The notes under the pieces were generated by a model, which saw only the letters and a list, made by a program, of their open reading frames with translations, ran no database searches and was not told the origin of the DNA. DNA of 32,657 bases, taken from contig JAAWCO010000079.1 of NCBI GenBank assembly GCA_022793315.1, positions 1 through 32,657 on the forward strand, given 5' to 3'. The DNA comes from Clostridiales bacterium. GTDB lineage: Bacteria > Bacillota > Clostridia > Oscillospirales > Acutalibacteraceae. A program made the translations under genes and the position numbers. This document shows, one piece after another, positions 14,787 to 32,657 of this stretch. The number at the start of each line of letters is the position of its first letter. Position 1 is the first letter of the stretch.

Positions 14787-16166
14787 ATGAAAACAGAAAA
14801 GTCTTCCATAACCTGTCCCTGCCATGAACTTGCCGGCGAATACGATGTGGTGGTGATCGGCGGGGGAACAGCTGGTGCGTTTGCCGCCATTGCCGCTGCT
14901 GACAGTGGGAAAAAGGCTCTGATCCTGGAGCGTTCCTATAGCCTGGGTGGTTCGGCAACGCTGGCGCAGGTCACCCCTCTGATGTCTAACCATCTGCCGA
15001 AGTTCACGGAAAACTCCTACCTGACCCTGCGCCTGACCGAGCGGATGATGGCGGTGGGAGCGGAGGACCGGCCTTCCTGGTCGCGCGGAGGCGGACGCTT
15101 CAGTCCGGTCAGACTGACCTATGAGCTGGAACGGATGGCAAAGGACTCAGGCGTGAAAATTCTGTACGGCGCCGATTTTGTGACGGTGAACCGGGAAGGG
15201 GAGCGTATTGAATCGGTCTGTATCAACACCATCAACGGCCTGCAGCTGGTTCGGGGGAAAACCTTTGTCGATGCGACCGGTGACGCACTGGTGGCCTGGC
15301 GCGCCGGATGTCCCTGCCTGACAGGGGATGAAGAGACAGGCAACAATCAGCCGGCGTCCCTGCGTTTCTCTGTGTCTAACGTGGATATGGAGGCCTTCCG
15401 CACCTATCTGAACAGCATCGGGTTCCCAGTGGCGGAGGGAGACGAATATTTTGAGCTGGGATGTATCTGGTCCAATGAGGGGGACCCCATCACTGAGCTG
15501 CTCCACAGGGGCGTGGCGGATGGAGAACTGGAGCGCCGGGAAGTGGAGTATTTTCAATGCTTCTGTTCACCCTGCATGGGCGGTCTGATCTACTTTAACT
15601 GTCCGGAAGCGCCCCACCTGCTTAATACCACAGATGCCTCCTCCGTAACGGAGATTGTGCTCTTCTGCCGGGAGGCAGCGGTCCGTCTGCACACCTTTTT
15701 TAAAAAGCATGTGGGCGGATTTGAAAACAGTGCCATTGCCGCCTTTGCCGAAATACCGGGCATCCGTGAAGGGCGCCGGATTGAGGGAGAGTATGTGCTG
15801 ACCGCGGAGGATTACTGCCAGCGGCTGAAGGTGGAGGATGCGGTGACCCAGACGGCCTATCCGATTGATGTCCATGGCAACATCGAGGGGAACTATGGGA
15901 TGCAGCCGGGGGAATATATGGAGATCCCCTATCGCAGCCTGATCCCCAAAGGCGTCGATAACCTGTTGGTGGCGGGCCGTTCCGTATCGTCTACTTTTAT
16001 CGCCCAGTCGGCGGTCCGTATTCAGCTGGTCTGCCGCAGTCTCGGTGAGGCGGCGGGAATCGCCTGCGCCATGGCCTGTGACCAGGGGGCGAAGCTCTCC
16101 GATATTTCGGGGGAAAAGGTGCGCGAGAAAATGATCGCCCGCGGCGCTGTTTTCCTGAATCGCTAA
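14787..16166 (+). CDS. FAD-dependent oxidoreductase (FAD_oxidored-like), copy 1
   Basis: A 459-residue cytoplasmic protein without signal peptide. The dinucleotide-binding motif is G25-G-G-T-A-G30 after a VVVIG strand, with the following acidic residue in ILERSYSLGGSATLA. A second FAD contact, FVDATGDALVAW, lies at about 165, and a C-terminal NLLVAGRSVSSTFIAQSAVRIQLVCRSLGEAAGIACAMA segment closes the FAD fold. This matches the PF12831-type FAD-dependent oxidoreductases often found in carbohydrate-use loci, whose substrates are mostly unknown. Cysteine pairs (CPCHE near the N-terminus, CFCSPC mid-protein) are notable. An oxidation or reduction step on an imported sugar is a guess from context. 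AAGAGGAAGGG supplies the ribosome site. Confidence 0.85.
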   Translation: MKTEKSSITCPCHELAGEYDVVVIGGGTAGAFAAIAAADSGKKALILERSYSLGGSATLAQVTPLMSNHLPKFTENSYLTLRLTERMMAVGAEDRPSWSRGGGRFSPVRLTYELERMAKDSGVKILYGADFVTVNREGERIESVCINTINGLQLVRGKTFVDATGDALVAWRAGCPCLTGDEETGNNQPASLRFSVSNVDMEAFRTYLNSIGFPVAEGDEYFELGCIWSNEGDPITELLHRGVADGELERREVEYFQCFCSPCMGGLIYFNCPEAPHLLNTTDASSVTEIVLFCREAAVRLHTFFKKHVGGFENSAIAAFAEIPGIREGRRIEGEYVLTAEDYCQRLKVEDAVTQTAYPIDVHGNIEGNYGMQPGEYMEIPYRSLIPKGVDNLLVAGRSVSSTFIAQSAVRIQLVCRSLGEAAGIACAMACDQGAKLSDISGEKVREKMIARGAVFLNR

Positions 16167-16218
16167 CGGGCTGTTCAATCCTTACCAAATGGAGTGCCTG
16201 CCTGTGAGAGGCGCCGAA

Positions 16219-16234
16219 AGGTCCAGGCGGACCT
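16219..16234 (+). other. Small hairpin between the two FAD genes
   Basis: AGGTCC-AGGC-GGACCT, a perfect 6-bp stem in the 142-base gap between the two FAD genes, without T-run. No counterpart was seen before copy 1. Confidence 0.35.
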
Positions 16235-16269
16235 CTGATGGAAACGGAGAAGCTCTCCCAACTAAATAA

Positions 16270-16284
16270 GACGGCCCTGCCGTC
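16270..16284 (+). promoter_or_regulatory. Leader hairpin, copy 2
   Basis: GACGGC-CCT-GCCGTC, 24 bases before the second FAD gene's ATG. Compared with copy 1 the stem is kept and extended while the loop changed from TTT to CCT, a pattern expected if the RNA fold is under selection. Confidence 0.5.
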
Positions 16285-16308
16285 CAATAAGAAAAGGTGT
16301 GATACCTG

Positions 16309-17700
16309 ATGAAAACGGAGAAATCGGCAGTATCCTATCCCTGCGGGACCTTTGCCGGCGAATACGATGTCGTGGTGGTCGGCGGAGGAACCGCCGGTGC
16401 GTTTGCCGCCATTGCCGCTGCGGACAGCGGTAAAAAGGTGCTGCTTTTGGAGCGCGCCTATAGTTTAGGCGGCTCGGCAACGCTGGCACAGGTCACCCCT
16501 CTGATGGCCAATGTTCTGCCCAAATATACCGATAATTCCTATCTGACCCTGCGCCTGAAGGAACGGATGATGGCGGTGGGAGCGGAGAACCATCCTAACT
16601 GGTCCGTCGGCGGCGGCAGCTTCAATCCGGTCAGGCTGGCATATGAGCTGGAACAGATGGCGCAGGAGTCAGGCGTCGAAATCCTGTACGGCGCCGATTT
16701 TGTGGGAGTGAACCGGGAAGGGGACCGTATAGAATCGGTCTGTATCAACACCATCAACGGCCTGCAGCTGGTCCGGGGGAAAACCTTTGTCGATGCGACC
16801 GGCGACGCACTGGTGGCCTGGCGCGCAGGCTGTCCCTGTGTGACAGGGGATGAGAAGACCGGAAAAAATCAGCCGGCCTCCCTTCGCTTCTCCGTTGCCG
16901 GCGTCCATATGCCCGGTTTTCGCGCGTTCCTGAACAGCATCGGTATTCCGATTGAGGATGACGACGAATATGCTGAGCTGGGCTGTATCTGGTCGAATGG
17001 ATGCAAGCCGTCGGTTCAGATGCTTCCTTTGTTCAGCAAGGGAATTGAGGACGGAGAGCTGGAACAGGGGGATGTGGAATATTTCCAGTGCTTCTGCGCG
17101 CCCTGTCTGAACGGTATGGTCTACTTCAATTGCCCGGAGGCGGTTGATCTTCGCAATACGGTGGACGCGGCCTCTGTCACAAAAATTGTGCTTACCTGCC
17201 GCGCGGCGGCGGTCCGCCTGCATACCTTCTTCAAAAAACATGTGGGCGGCTTTGAGAACAGCACCATTGCCGCCTTTGCGGAGATACCGGGCATTCGCGA
17301 GGGGCGGCGGATCGAAGGGGAATACGTGCTGACCACAGAGGATTACTGCCAGTGCCGGAAGGCGGAGGATGCCGTGACTCAGAACGCCTACCCGGTTGAT
17401 GTTCACGGCGATACCGAAAACAATGGCAGCGTTTTTCCGGCGGGAGAGTATATGGAAATCCCCTATCGCTGCCTGATCCCCAAAGGGGTTGATAATCTGC
17501 TGGTAGCGGGCCGCTGCATCTCCTCCTCCTTTATTGCCCAGTCGGCAATCCGCATCCAGCTGGTCTGCCGCAGTCTCGGTGAGGCGGCGGGAATCGCCTG
17601 CTCCATGGCCTGTGATCGGGAGGTCAAGCTCTCCGATATTCGTGGAGAAGAGGTGCGTGGGGAGATGATCGCCCGCGGCGCTGTTTTCCTGAACCGGTAA
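16309..17700 (+). CDS. FAD-dependent oxidoreductase (FAD_oxidored-like), copy 2
   Basis: A 463-residue tandem paralogue of the preceding gene. The N-terminal GGGTAGAFAAIAAADSGKK motif has the same numbering, and the VCINTINGLQLVRGKTFVDATGDALVAWRAGCPC and GGFENS-IAAFAEIPGIREGRRIEGEYVL segments are nearly identical. Differences cluster between about 195 and 270 (e.g. CKPSVQMLPLFSKGIEDGELEQGD versus the shorter DPITELLHRGVADGELERRE) and at about 365 (DTENNGSVFPAGEY). The CFCAPC pair is kept. The local divergence suggests different substrates on a common FAD scaffold. No signal peptide, so cytoplasmic. Followed by a hairpin without T-run, so transcription probably continues into the GH26-like genes. 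Confidence 0.85.
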   Translation: MKTEKSAVSYPCGTFAGEYDVVVVGGGTAGAFAAIAAADSGKKVLLLERAYSLGGSATLAQVTPLMANVLPKYTDNSYLTLRLKERMMAVGAENHPNWSVGGGSFNPVRLAYELEQMAQESGVEILYGADFVGVNREGDRIESVCINTINGLQLVRGKTFVDATGDALVAWRAGCPCVTGDEKTGKNQPASLRFSVAGVHMPGFRAFLNSIGIPIEDDDEYAELGCIWSNGCKPSVQMLPLFSKGIEDGELEQGDVEYFQCFCAPCLNGMVYFNCPEAVDLRNTVDAASVTKIVLTCRAAAVRLHTFFKKHVGGFENSTIAAFAEIPGIREGRRIEGEYVLTTEDYCQCRKAEDAVTQNAYPVDVHGDTENNGSVFPAGEYMEIPYRCLIPKGVDNLLVAGRCISSSFIAQSAIRIQLVCRSLGEAAGIACSMACDREVKLSDIRGEEVRGEMIARGAVFLNR

Positions 17701-17707
17701 AAGACCG

Positions 17708-17724
17708 CTCCGGCAGAGCCGGAG
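17708..17724 (+). other. Small GC-rich hairpin after FAD copy 2
   Basis: CTCCGGC-AGA-GCCGGAG, a perfect 7-bp stem eight bases after the stop codon, without a T-run. The same CGGC-AGA-GCCG core occurs in the right-end repeat block (32503). Confidence 0.4.
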
Positions 17725-17868
17725 AACAGACTCTGCATGAATACTGGTGGCCAATGTACCGCGTTGGTTAAGCGGCCGATTGTGGGGGCACAGCCGAACA
17801 CGTCGGCGGCAGCGTATCAACCCATTCTGCTGAAAAGATAAAAAGGAAAAGAAAGAAGGGAATCCACC

Positions 17869-19647
17869 TTGAAAAAGGCTGTAAAAAAATCGCTGGGCAG
17901 TTCTCTGACGGCTTGTCTGCTGGCCGTCTGCCTGCTGTTCTCCGGCTGTGAGGTATCCGATGCCCCGATAGCTCCGGGAACAGAGGGGGAGAGTACAACC
18001 CCCACGACGTCCGGTGGCGCCGCCACCCCTGACCCGGTACTGTCGCTGGTGGAGGAGCGGTATACCGATGGACTGGGTGAGATCCTTCGGACTGAGCTGT
18101 ATGAAAACGGCAGCCGTGCGGAGCGGGACGAGCTGATCCGTGAGCGCGATAACAAGGTTTTTTATCTGACCGCCGATAAAAAGCGGGTGATCAATTATGC
18201 CGACGGCTATCTGATGGATGTGCCGCTGGATATGGCGCCCGACTATTCTCTCAGTCCCATCCGCTCCCGTTATTCCAATGCCGATACCGTCCTGACCGTT
18301 ACCAAAGAGACCATTCCGGAGGGCTACACCTATGACGCCCTGATGGATGAATGCTACAATTATCTGCTGAAGGACAGCGATTTCATCCGCAGAAACCGCG
18401 TTTCCCGCCAGCCCAGTGAGGAGGCTGCCTATCAGATCAATCGGCTGACGGGAACCGGTCCGCAGACCTATACGGCGGAGTTTTTTACCATGAAGCTTGC
18501 CGGCATGCCGGAGGGGAGCAAGGATCTGTACCAATATGTTCTCCTGACCAATAAAAGCAGCCGGACCTATTATTTCTTCCTGTGCAAATCGAGCGTGGAG
18601 GTCGATATGAAGGAGATTATCGAATCCTTCCAGCTCATCCAGCCGCAGGGAACAGCGGTCTATAATGTTCAATACAACCTGACCGAATCCCCCTCCTGGT
18701 CGGAGGAGACCCGGGCCTACTACCGCCAGCTGAAAGATCAGAAGCATGTGGATTGGGGGCTGTTTTCCGGTCCGACTAACCGGGGAGACCTGTCGGATGT
18801 TCACACCTTTGACCAGCTGGCCGATGTAAAGCTGCCGATTGCCTCTATTTATCGCCATGTCTGGGAGGGCTTTCCCATGGAAGCGGCGAAGGCGGTTGAT
18901 GCCGAGGGACGGATGCTGCAGTTCACCTACCAGTTCACAGACAATAACAATACCGATATCAAGCATTCCCATTCCGAAGCGCTGGAGGTTTATCGCGGCA
19001 AGGACGACAAATACCTGTATGAGCTGGCCCAGGCGCTGAAGGAATACGGCAAGCCGGTGCTGTTCCGCCTGAACAACGAAATGAACACCGACTGGACCTC
19101 CTACAGCGCCTGCGGAACGATGCTGGACCCCGACATTTTTGTGGAAAACTGGATTCGCCTGTACAATATTTTTGAAGAGGTGGGGGTAGACAACGCCATC
19201 TGGATTTTCAATCCCAACGGCGTGGACTGCCCGCAGGCGAAATGGGGTCACTATCTCACCTATATGCCGCCGGCCCAGTATGTACAGATGCTGGGGGTAA
19301 CCGAATATGTTTCAGGGCATTCCGGATACCCCTCCTTTGAGAAGGTTTACAGCGATATGGAGAAGAAATACTCCGGCTTCTTCGGCGACTGGCCGTGGAT
19401 CATTTCCGAGTTCGCCTGCGGTACCGGAAACCTCGACGGGAGAAAGGAGCAGATCCGCTGGGTGGAGGATATGCTGGCGACCATGGCTTCTGGCCGTTTC
19501 CCGCAGATTAAGGCGGCCATCTGGTTCAGCGGCAACGATTACCGGGAGGATGGCTCTATTCAAAACGAATACCAGCTGGATTTCGGCAACAGCGAATTGA
19601 TGCAGGCCTTCCGCGAGGGGTTGGCAGACGTTCTTCCAAAGGGATAA
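17869..19647 (+). CDS. Lipoprotein glycosidase, GH26-like (clan GH-A), paralogue 1
   Basis: A 592-residue protein starting at TTG 17869 behind GAAAGAAGGGAA. Lipobox LLFSGC gives a lipid-anchored Cys27, followed by a low-complexity Thr/Pro/Gly linker. Residues ~55-270 form a domain shared with the two paralogues (NKVFYLTADKKRVINYADGYLMDVP, DYSLSPIRSRYS). The C-terminal barrel (about 270-590) carries KPVLFRLNNEMNTDWTSY with candidate acid/base Glu404 and WPWIISEFACG with candidate nucleophile Glu514, plus NAIWIFNPNG and AAIWFSGND. This order and spacing match GH26 enzymes (mannanases and relatives), though GH26's usual RPxHE is replaced by RLNNE. Acts on the outer face of the membrane. Substrate unknown. 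Confidence 0.72.
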   Translation: MKKAVKKSLGSSLTACLLAVCLLFSGCEVSDAPIAPGTEGESTTPTTSGGAATPDPVLSLVEERYTDGLGEILRTELYENGSRAERDELIRERDNKVFYLTADKKRVINYADGYLMDVPLDMAPDYSLSPIRSRYSNADTVLTVTKETIPEGYTYDALMDECYNYLLKDSDFIRRNRVSRQPSEEAAYQINRLTGTGPQTYTAEFFTMKLAGMPEGSKDLYQYVLLTNKSSRTYYFFLCKSSVEVDMKEIIESFQLIQPQGTAVYNVQYNLTESPSWSEETRAYYRQLKDQKHVDWGLFSGPTNRGDLSDVHTFDQLADVKLPIASIYRHVWEGFPMEAAKAVDAEGRMLQFTYQFTDNNNTDIKHSHSEALEVYRGKDDKYLYELAQALKEYGKPVLFRLNNEMNTDWTSYSACGTMLDPDIFVENWIRLYNIFEEVGVDNAIWIFNPNGVDCPQAKWGHYLTYMPPAQYVQMLGVTEYVSGHSGYPSFEKVYSDMEKKYSGFFGDWPWIISEFACGTGNLDGRKEQIRWVEDMLATMASGRFPQIKAAIWFSGNDYREDGSIQNEYQLDFGNSELMQAFREGLADVLPKG

Positions 19648-19690
19648 AACCATTCGAGAAAATTTTTGTATTTTCTGCTTGCATTTCGGC

Positions 19691-19719
19691 TTGTCAATCG
19701 AATCAGAATGTGCTATAAA
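19691..19719 (+). promoter_or_regulatory. Sigma-A promoter TTGTCA-N17-TATAAA
   Basis: TTGTCA (19691-19696), a 17-base spacer and TATAAA (19714-19719) lie in the gap after the first GH26-like gene. Transcription would start near 19726, just before a strong hairpin, and serve the second GH26-like gene. Confidence 0.7.
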
Positions 19720-19733
19720 GTAAAATCAAAGGC

Positions 19734-19763
19734 CGGTTCTCCCCGTCCAGGCGGGGAGAACCG
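19734..19763 (+). promoter_or_regulatory. Strong 5'-leader hairpin
   Basis: CGGTTCTCCCCG-TCCAGG-CGGGGAGAACCG is a perfect 12-bp stem with a 6-base loop, a few bases downstream of the expected transcription start and about 50 bases before the TTG start. No T-run follows, so it is not a terminator. mRNA 5'-end protection or a protein-binding leader are possible. Confidence 0.6.
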
Positions 19764-19813
19764 TGGACCGAAGCAGGGTGTTCCATGACAGAAAGGGTGA
19801 AGAGGTGGCCATT

Positions 19814-21538
19814 TTGAAGAAATCGGGGCGGAGGAGCCTTTCCGCTGTTCTGGCGGTCTGCCTGCTGTTCAGCTGCACGGCCCTTGCCGGCTGCAACGGG
19901 CAGGAGAAGGGGAAGGAACCCGCCGCCCCCAGCGAGGAGCAGCTGACGGCAGTCCGGGAGAGCCTTCAGACTGCCGGACACATGGAGGGACTGGGCGAGC
20001 TGTCCCAAATGGAGCTCTATGTCAACGGCCAGCGTACGGCCGATACCGAGATGGTTTCCGCCAAGGACAATAAAATCATCTATTATACAGCCGATAAAAA
20101 GCGAATTGTCAATTTCCCCGACGGCTATCTGATGGATCTGGGGCTGGACTGGCAGCCGGACTTTTCGCTGAGCCCGGTCCGCACCCGTTACCTGACCGAT
20201 AACGCTGTTCTTACCATCACCAGGGAAAAGAATACCTATCCGACGATGGAGGAATTTGTCAGCGCCTGTGTCACCCGATATATCAAGGACGACGCCTTTC
20301 TTGCCGCCAACCGTATCCAGCGGATAAAGGAAAACCGCACCATTACGGTGGGGGAATACACCGCCGAGCGAATCGACCTGAAACTGGACGGAATGGAAGA
20401 GGGCGGAATGGCCAACTATTCGTATGCCATTCTGACCCGACCGGACAGCAGCGATTTCTATTTTTTCATGCTGAAATACAATCAGCCGGAGGATCTGGAC
20501 GCTATTCTGGCCACCTTTGAGAAGGTCCGTGTGCAGGGCATCGGCGTCTACAGCAAGACCTTCGAGCTCAGGGAGCCTGAGAACTGGAGCGCCGACACCA
20601 AAGCCTATTATGAAAAGCTGAAAAACCAGAAGCATATTGACTGGGGTATTTTCAGCGCCAACCTGGCCAAGGTGGGGATGAAGAGCGATGTTCCTGCCCT
20701 GGAAAAGCGTATGGATTACAAATTTCCGATCATCTCCGAATATATCCATTATTCCAAAAACAAATTCCCCACTGAGCTGACTCAAATCCTCGATAAAGAG
20801 GGCCGTCAGCTCCAGCTGACCTATCAGTTCACCTCCTCCAATAATACCGAACTGGCGGGATATACGCCCTCTCTTGATATCTATCGCGGCCGTTGCGACG
20901 AGGAGCTTCGTGCCTTTGCCAGGGAAGTGAAAGCCTATGGCAAGCCGGTGCTGTTCCGCCTGAACAATGAGATGAACACCGACTGGACCAGCTACTGCGG
21001 TCTGACCAATATGGTGGATCCGGATATTTTTGTGGCGTCCTGGGTGCGGATGTATAAGCTCTTTGAAGAAGAGGGCGTCAACAATACCATTTGGATTTTT
21101 AACCCGTTTGACGGCAGCTATCCTCCCTGCAACTGGGCTAATTTCATCAATTATATGCCCGATTCGGAATATGTCCAGATGATTGGACTGACCGGCTATG
21201 AGTCGAATAATAAAAATACAAACCAATCCTACCAGGTCATTTATGATAAGATTGTTCAAAACTATGAACCCTTCTTTATGGACTGGCCGTGGATTATTTC
21301 CGAGTTTGCCTGTGGCTCCGGCGCCAATAAAGAAAATCAGGAATCCCAGGCGAAATGGGTGGAGGAGATGTTCGACTGTTTTGAGCAGGGACGATACCCG
21401 AATATCAAGGTGGCCGTCTGGTTTAACGGCAATGACTACACCGATGAAGGACAGGTAAAAAACCGCTATGCTTTGAGCGTGACCAACAAGAGTACAATGA
21501 AAGCCTTTAAGGACGGCCTGGCGGCCACACAGCCGTAG
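19814..21538 (+). CDS. Lipoprotein glycosidase, GH26-like, paralogue 2
   Basis: The TTG at 19814 is preferred (8 bases behind GAAGAGG); the track's GTG at 19763 overlaps the leader hairpin, and GTG 19805 overlaps the ribosome site. This gives 574 residues with an ideal lipobox LAGC, Cys27. The domain order is that of paralogue 1: shared N-terminal domain (NKIIYYTADKKRIVNFPDGYLMDLG) and C-terminal barrel with KPVLFRLNNEMNTDWTSY (Glu386) and WPWIISEFACGSG (Glu497). The Glu-to-Glu spacing of 111 residues matches the other two copies (110). Distinct features are AKVGMKSDVPALEKRMDYKFPIISEYIHYSKNKFP and NPFDGSYPPCNWANFINYMP. It has its own promoter, so it may be expressed separately from paralogue 1. 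Confidence 0.72.
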   Translation: MKKSGRRSLSAVLAVCLLFSCTALAGCNGQEKGKEPAAPSEEQLTAVRESLQTAGHMEGLGELSQMELYVNGQRTADTEMVSAKDNKIIYYTADKKRIVNFPDGYLMDLGLDWQPDFSLSPVRTRYLTDNAVLTITREKNTYPTMEEFVSACVTRYIKDDAFLAANRIQRIKENRTITVGEYTAERIDLKLDGMEEGGMANYSYAILTRPDSSDFYFFMLKYNQPEDLDAILATFEKVRVQGIGVYSKTFELREPENWSADTKAYYEKLKNQKHIDWGIFSANLAKVGMKSDVPALEKRMDYKFPIISEYIHYSKNKFPTELTQILDKEGRQLQLTYQFTSSNNTELAGYTPSLDIYRGRCDEELRAFAREVKAYGKPVLFRLNNEMNTDWTSYCGLTNMVDPDIFVASWVRMYKLFEEEGVNNTIWIFNPFDGSYPPCNWANFINYMPDSEYVQMIGLTGYESNNKNTNQSYQVIYDKIVQNYEPFFMDWPWIISEFACGSGANKENQESQAKWVEEMFDCFEQGRYPNIKVAVWFNGNDYTDEGQVKNRYALSVTNKSTMKAFKDGLAATQP

Positions 21539-21593
21539 GCTGTTTACGGACCGTTCCCGAAGGATCAATCAGTGTGCCAATCACAGGACTGCG

Positions 21594-21632
21594 AACCCGC
21601 GGCAGACGGCGTTCCCATCTGCCGCGGGTTTT
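21594..21632 (+). terminator. Terminator-like hairpin between paralogues 2 and 3
   Basis: AACCCGCGGCAGA (21594-21606) pairs perfectly over 13 bp with TCTGCCGCGGGTT (21618-21630). An 11-base loop separates them, and TTGATCTTGT follows. The T-run is short, so read-through into the next gene is likely; only about 20 bases remain before its start codon and no promoter is visible there. Confidence 0.65.
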
Positions 21633-21652
21633 GATCTTGTAAAGGAGGAATC

Positions 21653-23260
21653 ATGATGAACGAAGAAATTCTGCAGGGATTTCCCCCTCCCGAAAAAGAG
21701 GAATGGTATGAGGACGGACGCCTGCGTTCATCCTCTCCGAAGGAAGGGGAATGGGCTCCGGAAAAGGACAACAAGCTGATTTACACGGCAGGGGATCGCC
21801 AGCGTGTGGTAAATTTTCCTGACGGATATTTGCTGGATGTCCCCGCCGGCTGGCGGCCGGATTTCACCCTCAGCCCGGTGAGGGTCCGATATCGGGCGGA
21901 GGGGCTTGTTCTGACCGTCACCAGGGAAAAAATGATTTACGACACCCATCAATTCTTTTTTGACGAATGCTTCAACCGCCACATCAAGGACCCGCAGTAT
22001 CGGAAGGAGAACCAGATTACCGAAGTGCGGCCCTGTCATGTGGAGGAGCTGGACGGGTATCGGGCGGAGTTCATTCATCTGCATCTGGAGGGAATGCCGG
22101 AGGGGAGCCTGACCTATTATACCTTTGTCAAGCTCTACAACGAATCCCCCGACTTTTTCCACTTTTTGCTCAAGACGGCGGAATCCTTTGATCTGGAGCC
22201 GGTCGTCCGTTCGCTGAGGGAGATTCCCGCCAGCGGCACCGCGGTGTACAGCGCCGAATTCCAGCCCCATGTGTCGGAGGACTGGACCCCGGAGACACGT
22301 GCCTATTATGAAAAGCTGAAAAATGCCGATACCATCCAGTGGGGATTGTTTACCAGCCATGGGAACAGCGGCCAGCTCGACCAGCTTGAGGAGCTGGAGG
22401 AAAAGATGGACTATCGCTTCCCCATTGTTTCGATTTACCGCCATGTGGTGCATGGTTTCCCGACCGAGGCGGTGCAGCGGGTGGCCGACGCCGGCCGGCA
22501 GCTTCAGTTCACCTATCAGTACACAGGCACCAATAACACCGACCTTTCCTCCGGATCGGCGGCGCTGGAGGTTTACCGCGGCAAATGGGATGACCGCCTG
22601 CGCGAAATTGCCAGAGGCATCCGCGATTACGGCAAGCCGGTGCTTTTCCGCCTGAACAACGAGATGAACACCGACTGGACCAGCTACAGCGGTCTGGTGT
22701 GTCTGCTGGACCCGGATATTTTTATTGAGACCTGGATCCGCTTTTACAACATCTTTGAAGAGGAGGGTGTACATAACGCCATCTGGATCTGCAATCCGTT
22801 TGACAAGAGCTTCCCTCCCTGCCGCTGGGCCAGCTTCATCAACTACATGCCGCCGGCCGAGTATATGCACCTGATCGGCGTCACCGGCTATTGCAGAGGA
22901 CATAACGGATTCCCCAGCTTCCGGAAGATTTATCAGAAGATCGAGGATGACTATCGTCCCTTTTTCATGGACTGGCCGTGGATTATTTCCGAGTTTGGCT
23001 GCGCCAGCGGGGATGGCACCCAGCTGGACGAGCAGGAGGAATGGCTGCGGGGCATGTTCGATTGCTATGAGCAGGGGCTGTTCTCCAACATCAAGGCCGC
23101 TGTCTGGTTCAGCGCCGACGACCTGAACCCGGATGGCTCGATACTCAACTGGTACCTGCTGCATCCGGAGCAGGATCAGATCATGGGGGCGTTCCGCGAC
23201 GGCTTTAAGAGGACTCATGCAGAGGCGGCCTGCCCGCCCGGTGAGGGGGCGTCTGTATGA
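21653..23260 (+). CDS. GH26-like glycosidase, paralogue 3, without export signal
   Basis: A 535-residue protein behind an excellent AAAGGAGG. Unlike paralogues 1 and 2 it starts directly with a hydrophilic sequence (MMNEEILQGFPPPEKEEWYEDG…) and has no signal peptide, lipobox or membrane span, so it should stay in the cytoplasm. The rest aligns throughout: NKLIYTAGDRQRVVNFPDGYLLDVP, then KPVLFRLNNEMNTDWTSY (Glu337) and WPWIISEFGCASGDG (Glu447), 110 residues apart. FGCAS is closer to the SEFG usually seen at GH nucleophiles than the FACG of its siblings. The stop overlaps the next start (ATGA), so the following lipoprotein is translationally coupled. An intracellular finishing role on imported oligosaccharides is inferred. 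Confidence 0.72.
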   Translation: MMNEEILQGFPPPEKEEWYEDGRLRSSSPKEGEWAPEKDNKLIYTAGDRQRVVNFPDGYLLDVPAGWRPDFTLSPVRVRYRAEGLVLTVTREKMIYDTHQFFFDECFNRHIKDPQYRKENQITEVRPCHVEELDGYRAEFIHLHLEGMPEGSLTYYTFVKLYNESPDFFHFLLKTAESFDLEPVVRSLREIPASGTAVYSAEFQPHVSEDWTPETRAYYEKLKNADTIQWGLFTSHGNSGQLDQLEELEEKMDYRFPIVSIYRHVVHGFPTEAVQRVADAGRQLQFTYQYTGTNNTDLSSGSAALEVYRGKWDDRLREIARGIRDYGKPVLFRLNNEMNTDWTSYSGLVCLLDPDIFIETWIRFYNIFEEEGVHNAIWICNPFDKSFPPCRWASFINYMPPAEYMHLIGVTGYCRGHNGFPSFRKIYQKIEDDYRPFFMDWPWIISEFGCASGDGTQLDEQEEWLRGMFDCYEQGLFSNIKAAVWFSADDLNPDGSILNWYLLHPEQDQIMGAFRDGFKRTHAEAACPPGEGASV

Positions 23261-31719: not shown

Positions 31720-32139
31720 ATGAGGTATTACAAAAAAGCCAAAGACATGATGGACATGGACGCCACAGAATTTATTGGCGGTGTTTCAGAAGGTGAAATA
31801 GAACGGGCCATGAAATCATTATCGGTTGCTTTCCCGGAGAGCTATAAGGCTTTTTTAATGGATTTTGGCGGCGGTGACGCCGGTGGGGAAGTCATCCTTG
31901 GGCTCACCAATCGTGAAGAAGATGATGTGGTTATTGCTACACAAATGGAGCGCCGTCAGGGTCTGCCGGAGAATCTGATCATTATTGGCTTTTGGCAGGA
32001 TACTCTCGTCTGCCTGGACACAGGCAGGATGAATCATGGGGAATGTCCTGTTGTGGAAGTGGGGGAGGATTATAGCCAAACCGAAGTGGCGGCGGATAGC
32101 TTTGGAAAATTTTTATATGAGTATGTTGAGGAAGAGTAA
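31720..32139 (+). CDS. SMI1/KNR4 (SUKH-superfamily) protein
   Basis: A 139-residue soluble acidic protein. The SUKH pattern is visible: an N-terminal segment GVSEGEIERAMKSLSVAFPESYKAFLMDFGGGDAGGEVILGL, a central strand pair NLIIIGFWQDTLVCLDTGRMNHGECPVVEVGED and a closing helix SFGKFLYEYVEEE. Known members are often immunity proteins of polymorphic toxin systems, but many are stand-alone with unknown roles. No toxin gene is seen beside it. It has its own promoter and is followed by a terminator, so it is a monocistronic unit. Confidence 0.85.
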   Translation: MRYYKKAKDMMDMDATEFIGGVSEGEIERAMKSLSVAFPESYKAFLMDFGGGDAGGEVILGLTNREEDDVVIATQMERRQGLPENLIIIGFWQDTLVCLDTGRMNHGECPVVEVGEDYSQTEVAADSFGKFLYEYVEEE

Positions 32140-32266
32140 TAGATCCTCTTGTTTATTGGGCAGTTACCTGTAAGGTGGCTGTCCACTTTCGATATTTTGA
32201 CAGATGATTTTGTCAAACAGCGTGAAGTCATACTTATCTGAAAGGGAGGCTTTCGGCCTTGCCTGG

Positions 32267-32286
32267 CTCCGGGAGTCGTCCCGGAG
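32267..32286 (+). other. Hairpin CTCCGGGA-GTCG-TCCCGGAG
   Basis: A perfect 8-bp stem with a 4-base loop upstream of the SMI1/KNR4 terminator and without its own T-run. Confidence 0.45.
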
Positions 32287-32294
32287 GGTTCAGA

Positions 32295-32321
32295 GCCGGT
32301 ATGGACTTTCCGGCGTTTTTT
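32295..32321 (+). terminator. Intrinsic terminator after the SMI1/KNR4 gene
   Basis: GCCGG (32295-32299) pairs with CCGGC (32310-32314) across a 10-base loop, followed by G and six T. The stem is short but the T-run is good. Confidence 0.6.
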
Positions 32322-32326
32322 CTCTA

Positions 32327-32579
32327 CCCATTTCCCCAACTTCATGGTACAATGACCACGGCCCAACGCATCTGCTCACGTAACGCCCGGTGGCCGTGGC
32401 CCTGAAAATGCCTGCCGGCATTTTCCCCACGTTTATGGTACAATGCAGGAAATCAAAGATTTCCTGCCGAAGCATTCCCTGTCGGGCGGAGCGCCCTCCT
32501 GCGGCAGAGCCGCAACGGGAATTCTTCTGGGGGAGGGTGCTTATCTTCAGGTACCATACAGGAAACCGAAGATTTCCTG
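32327..32579. repeat. Cluster of dyads linked to a repeated ATGGTACAATG motif
   Basis: CATTTCCCCAACTTCATGGTACAATG (about 32329-32354) recurs as CATTTTCCCCACGTTTATGGTACAATG (about 32419-32445). GGTACAATGCAGGAAATCAAAG… (32437-32466) recurs with 26 of 30 identical bases at 32550-32579. Dyads include GAAAATGCC/GGCATTTTC (32404-32425), CAGGAAATC/GATTTCCTG (32446-32466), GGGCG/CGCCC (32484-32496) and TGCGGC/GCCGCA (32500-32514). The last two are enclosed by ATTCCC/GGGAAT (32474-32522), giving a three-way-junction shape. Confidence 0.65.
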
Positions 32580-32657
32580 TGTCAATTATTTTACCTTTTG
32601 CGGCCCGGGGCCAGGAGCTTTCCCTGACGGGAAATCTCCCCCTCCGGCAGGGCGACC

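Follow-up and report, generated by a model that had tools for sequence, protein, structure and literature searches.

The window, a stretch of 32,657 nucleotides that makes up a whole contig (C125) of a Clostridiales draft genome (G000; 1.81 Mb, 78% complete), closes with a dense array of palindromes tied to a repeated motif, ATGGTACAATG, and raises the question of what kind of element such an array represents. The original prediction, made from the sequence alone, left a choice between a series of promoters or operators and a REP-like intergenic repeat family. The reading favored here, to which we assign a probability of about two in three, is a family of non-autonomous mobile cassettes that insert 3′ of an extended -10 motif (TGGTATAAT or TGGTACAAT), their mobility being well supported but indirect. 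The contig end falls within the array, and the finding sits at a contig end because many contigs end inside such arrays.

Architecture of the window array

The motif occurs twice in the window, each time directly followed by a dyad, as had been predicted, and together with a third, degenerate junction it divides the array into modules (Table 1). A 30-nt block (32437-32466) recurs at 32550-32579 with the expected 26/30 identities (87%), and the 24-nt blocks at 32331-32354 and 32422-32445 are 88% identical. Module A folds with a z of -3.15, while module C, compared with its other copies, is missing ~30 nt behind the 5′ hairpin. As the array opens with the remnant tail of a lost module A, the host promoter cannot be read here.

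Table 1. Features of the array at the end of the window
Feature	Position	Strand	Basis
Terminator-like hairpin, GCCGG..CCGGC then TTTTTT	32289..32321	+	sequence; consensus scan did not pick it
Remnant of lost preceding module A, 3′ tail CCATTTCCCCAACTTC	32328..32343	+	tail matches other A copies
Junction 1, ATGGTACAATG = extended -10 motif	32344..32354	+	sequence
Module A	32355..32434	+	46 other full or partial A copies in genome
Module A, 5′ hairpin	32356-32399	+	
Module A, second hairpin GAAAATGCC..GGCATTTTC, then tail	32404-32425	+	
Junction 2, ATGGTACAATG	32435..32445	+	sequence
Module B, 5′ hairpin GCAGGAAATC AAA GATTTCCTGC	32445..32467	+	begins one base past -10 hexamer
Module B, three-way-junction core	32467..32531	+	covariance model, covariation
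Module B, core stems: P1 (closing); P2, GGGCG-GAG-CGCCC; P3, TGCGGC-AGA-GCCGCA	P1 32467-32479/32517-32531; P2 32484-32496; P3 32500-32514	+	
Module B, tail	32532..32547	+	other B copies: similar tail before junctions
Junction 3, degenerate, CAGGTACCATA	32548..32558	+	sequence
Module C, cut off by contig end	32559..32657	+	97% identity to C consensus over 32586-32657

In module B, the two GC stems predicted inside a closing stem are present, and the core scores 79.5 bits (R1) and 76.1 bits (R2) with the covariance model. The minimum-energy RNA fold of the window copy alone differs, its second half being paired with the tail, and the three-way junction is instead backed by covariation across homologs. 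The linker between the second and third stems, CCTCC(T) (32495-32500 in the window, and in other B cores), is nearly invariant, resembles an anti-Shine-Dalgarno core, and in the window copy can pair with the GGAGGG tail. No Rfam match was found in the window at the gathering score, and at E up to 10 only chance-level miRNA matches appeared. The hairpin and T-run upstream of the array probably belong to the host, outside the cassette family; they close a series of GC-rich hairpins (32240-32321) that lies between the array and an ORF ending at 32139, equally without Rfam match.

Copies in the genome and its relatives

A genome-wide search for such units with window positions 32140-32657 (blastn) gave 88 matches in the same genome, more than chance, and in the ~42 places taken with their flanks, rather than the whole genome, 91 full or partial module copies were counted (47 A, 22 B, 13 C and 9 D). 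The four module types, about 80-220 bp each, are non-coding and strongly foldable, are joined in this genome by ATGGTACAATG, and have conserved ends (TGACC/TGCAG..CTTCA) adjoining TGGTACAAT; from junction to junction, module A measures 91 bp and module B about 113. Terminal inverted repeats are absent from A and B, whose ends share only TGA, and D alone has AAGCGC..GCGCTT (read by eye). Module order is free (A after A, B after A, A after B, C after B, etc.) and neighboring modules are co-oriented in 48/49 pairs, the single exception being two divergent arrays. Modules A and D are without the three-way-junction core. The C copies (L018:8027-8241, L025:2278-2466 and others) have the 5′ hairpin and closing-stem ends in common with B, but enclose far more sequence between them (CCCCGACCCCGGGCC...), as though stems within the junction could be swapped.

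An exact pattern of module A had no match in 84,980 genomes; in the same search the module B pattern found only a congener, G002 (JAAWQC01, Clostridiales bacterium isolate ABMPRH_71_1; 97% complete), and a chance-looking match in a Terriglobia record, and among viral contigs the exact patterns gave one unrelated match for A and none for B. When the B core of G000 and G002 was turned into a covariance model, with N placeholders inserted in some rows of the alignment to hold the third stem in register, it found G001, G002, G111 and G287. The model rebuilt from 65 matches, of which a few are weak reverse-strand echoes, adds G577 and G633 from other families of the order, and then G812 and G732 from the class, taken to be Clostridia from the name of G002. 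The distribution is patchy, since the order sample (394 genomes) and the class sample (391 genomes) each yielded only two new carriers. Two congeners share the plan of the core, and seven genomes in all follow it, from the genus itself, from further genera in its family, and from one other family and one other order. G001 joins modules of 133, 98-99 and 90 bp through TATGGTATAAT; G812, which falls outside the order, joins units of about 114 bp through TATGATATAAT and has the hairpin CTTAAAATC AAA GATTTTAAG before the core; and G111, an assembly of about 10 contigs, carries the same plan. A single core copy in G732 (L192) lies at an apparent gene end, with ~45 bp seemingly duplicated, and diverged, on its other side.

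The covariance analysis of the stems revealed strong covariation in the three-way junction of module B, with 24 two-sided cells against 5.9 in shuffled data for the first alignment and 209 against 76.6 for the second, which is biased towards the structure because it was fitted to it; module A offered one pair in five sequences, too little variation. The CCTC linker is invariant in the core. G-T pairs do not exceed A-C mismatches in number (11 vs 23 and 14 vs 10), and conserved pairing without an excess of G-U points to a structure in DNA rather than to RNA selection, on small counts. The array is thus neither unique to this site nor unconserved in its stems, as it belongs to a family of intergenic repeats that is spread through the genome and includes a conserved three-stem module; this part of the original prediction stands, and operators at one gene do not.

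Position behind extended -10 boxes and proposed insertion

The DNA before first modules is unique to each place, yet ends in a -10 box with few exceptions (TGGTACAAT, TGATACAAT, TGCTAAAAT, TGGTATAAT and others in G000), and first-module flanks converge on TGGTACAAT in G000 and on TGGTATAAT in G001, which bears out the suggested likeness of the repeated motif to an extended -10 box. A -35-like TTG lies 16-18 nt before the -10 box in 13/32 first flanks of G000, 9/37 of G001 and 4/11 of G002, against 1.6, 1.9 and 0.7 expected from shifted positions, and at internal junctions it is found at this distance in 0/28 (G000) and 0/33 (G001) cases; the full -35 score of G000 first flanks exceeds all 2000 shuffles. 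The insertion site thus has the sigma-70 arrangement of a -35 hexamer 16-18 nt before a -10 box, and a promoter is predicted there. All 41 places beyond the window lie outside predicted genes, and 23/29 arrays are oriented toward the downstream gene, in a gene context that is approximate as it comes from our own codon-usage gene caller (an ORF-based orientation count was set aside, as antisense ORFs in GC-rich DNA mislead).

A working promoter does not seem to be required, since some copies adjoin gene ends, terminator-like hairpins or stop codons. In G001, arrays at L146 and L161 lie at apparent stop codons giving TGGGGTAAC or TGGAATAAC, near matches to TGGTATAAT, and the target may be a sequence rather than promoter activity. 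In G002, B-type cassettes at L070, L123, L124, L125 and L127 lie directly behind a gene end, by terminator-like hairpins and not by a promoter, with direct repeats of loop plus right arm (e.g., GGGCCTATTCTC in L123, 27 bp in L127).

Of three species, two have flanking repeats that support a target duplication of non-constant length. The left flank of an array resembles its right flank more than it does flanks of different arrays in G000 (similarity 6.9 vs 5.6; 2/2000 permutations, 14 arrays; e.g., TGGGACAA, TGATACAATAA, TATGGTCAA) and in G002 (15.0 vs 7.6; 0/5000 permutations, 15 loci), where the repeats measure 10-28 bp when clear, and one G111 copy is flanked by TGATACAATAGTCGCAAAG on both sides. 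In G001, flanks are no more alike within than between loci (1073/5000 permutations), so that the right-hand -10 box there may be carried by the element instead of arising as a target duplication. The repeats range from 8 to 28 bp in length, unlike those of classical transposases.

The orthologous purL promoters provide an occupied/empty comparison: in G002 a cassette lies between two copies of TATGGTAAAATGTCCGCAGAACGCC, in G001 the promoter reads TATGATAGAAT and the cassette is absent, and in G000 an array at purL ends in ATGCTAAAAT. Over the 40 bases up to the purL -10 box, G001 matches the left copy of G002 at 30/40 positions and the right copy at 15/40. The pair is supporting rather than perfect, as it involves different species and a diverged region. 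Few cassette loci are common to the congeners, and at L135/L027, next to orthologous genes, the upstream regions are too diverged to be aligned at the promoter.

On the favored reading, a cassette would insert directly 3′ of an extended -10 motif and either end in the same motif or duplicate it, and would therefore have a -10 box on both sides. The host -35 and -10 elements would remain before the cassette and a second extended -10 box would face the gene behind; the first -10 box of an array would be that of the host promoter, and the later ones both insertion sites and junctions of chained cassettes. Since the cassette would target an extended -10 box and leave one on both sides, the second would act as a new target, and chaining through target regeneration, uniform orientation and free order would follow. 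Spread would proceed by a transposition-like insertion at -10 DNA, with the folding of a DNA single strand, possibly within an open promoter complex, as the putative signal for a mobilizing enzyme or repair pathway, and the cassettes would be mostly parasitic, tolerated because the -10 box is restored.

A further feature comes from G002, where the hairpin before the core varies from place to place, yet at each place one arm matches the other (mean score 9.75 vs 4.73 with arms swapped between loci; 0/5000 permutations). At promoter sites the left arm begins one base past the -10 hexamer, and at other sites it runs into the 3′ end of the gene before it (e.g., GAGAATAGGCCC in L123, with an apparent stop codon). 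Either one arm may be a copy of host sequence, or hairpins already present may mark the places where cassettes insert. A tentative extension, for which the odds are rather against, would be a class-wide, previously undescribed element whose machinery reads the extended -10 motif, copies host sequence into the 5′ hairpin arm and regenerates the -10 box, this box being most easily recognized when an open promoter complex exposes it as a single strand; were it true, promoters would be self-extending insertion platforms.

Known elements, rival explanations and remaining features of the window

The usual description of short interspersed repeats has them inserting into intergenic DNA that is AT-rich or palindromic. 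Cassettes that land between the -10 box and the transcript start, retain a -10 box on either side and so form chains would place structured leaders into dozens of genes at once without silencing them, and a limited search of open-access papers turned up no repeat described as having the -10 box for its target. The closest known kinds are BOX elements and MITEs, from which the cassettes are set apart by their ends, their -10 target and their free chaining. BOX elements of Streptococcus pneumoniae have boxB enclosed by the outer modules boxA and boxC, carry terminal inverted repeats similar to those of ISSpn2, are thought to be parasitic, and can change downstream expression (PMC3049150). Like them, the cassettes are modular, intergenic, foldable and short, with modules multiplied in tandem; unlike them, they show a free A/B/C/D order without fixed outer modules (the order boxA-(boxB)n-boxC is not encountered), lack terminal inverted repeats in A and B, and have an extended -10 box as junction. 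MITEs such as Correia, RUP and bcr1 are likewise short, non-coding, foldable and dispersed with flanking direct repeats, and Correia insertions can create promoters (PMC3049150), whereas cassettes A and B are without terminal inverted repeats and the family has variable repeat lengths and a -10 box target. REP/BIME elements, defined by a 20-40 bp palindrome with a GTAG or CGTC tag at one end (PMC3733652), resemble the cassettes as high-copy extragenic palindromes in mosaics (associated with RAYT), but cassette units measure 80-220 bp with two or more hairpins, their orientation is uniform and not alternating, and no such tagged palindromes are present; as two of the three congeners have a broken Y1 gene or none, the REP part of the original prediction fails on both features tested, the tagged palindrome and the Y1 gene.

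Some palindrome-associated elements derive from IS200/IS605, with hairpins near their ends, a short target that is always entered from one side and possibly a single-stranded substrate. The cassettes resemble them in the hairpins, the one-sided use of a short target and possibly the substrate; they differ in their flanking repeats in G000 and G002 and in ends dissimilar to the IS200 copies of relatives. A REP/BIME-like spread by a Y1 enzyme (RAYT or IS200/IS605) acting on single-stranded DNA, with insertion 3′ of a fixed target that is not duplicated and with the right-hand -10 box as the element's own cleavage site, would account for the multiple hairpins, fixed orientation, left-side target, chaining and the flank result in G001, and intact Y1 genes occur in G001, G111 and G287. 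It is nevertheless improbable, as Y1 transposase (PF01797) was found only as fragments with stops in G000 and not at all in G002, despite the completeness of the latter, as IS200 ends of relatives are unrelated to module ends, and as the flanking repeats of G000 and G002 are locus-specific. Y1 as mover is thus not supported, not being consistently present among carriers. A retro-element (group II intron or similar) was set aside as unlikely, since reverse transcriptase (RVT_1) is absent from all nine carrier genomes while control genomes were positive, and an IS110 or bridge-RNA element was rejected with PF02371 in only 1/9 carrier genomes. No autonomous partner, parental insertion sequence or mobility gene common to the carriers was recognized.

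That no shared mobility gene was found would agree with an enzyme-free spread, in which circles or fragments from recombination between -10 repeats re-insert by short homology at an extended -10 motif and slippage grows the arrays; flanking direct repeats of variable length, truncated last units and array-specific junction variants would fit as well. Such a process is improbable, as nine to twelve base pairs are short for RecA-type recombination and it leaves the conserved core and the locus-specific hairpin arms of G002 unexplained. Alternatively, the modules could be host regulatory leaders, i.e., 5′-UTR RNA elements (riboswitch-like or an anti-Shine-Dalgarno switch) multiplied by duplication, consistent with their location at the predicted transcription start, their co-orientation with genes, the strong covariation of the core and its invariant linker. 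This is unlikely, given that there is no Rfam match or excess of G-U over A-C, that modules A and D lack the core, that few loci are common to congeners and the distribution is patchy, and that the 5′ hairpin begins one base past the -10 hexamer, ahead of the expected transcription start. That the palindromes arose by chance in GC-rich intergenic DNA or from faulty assembly, as the location at a contig end might suggest, has a negligible probability, being refuted by dozens of copies inside contigs and by the same plan in other genomes, including G111. The mobile-cassette reading raises a testable question: which enzyme or process reads a -10 box as target, without a reverse transcriptase or a shared insertion sequence.

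Elsewhere in the window, the echo of the core reported at 17711, CGGCAGAGCCG, is present, but only these 11 bases are shared; they form the tip of an otherwise unrelated, plain and perfect hairpin (CTCCGGC-AGA-GCCGGAG; 17700-17730) just past a stop codon at 17700, probably an ordinary 3′-end hairpin. Two similar FAD-type ORFs (14787-17700) lie just upstream of three consecutive ORFs of 592, 591 and 535 aa (17869-23260), which resemble tandem paralogs with a shared LFRLNNEMNTDWTSY motif.
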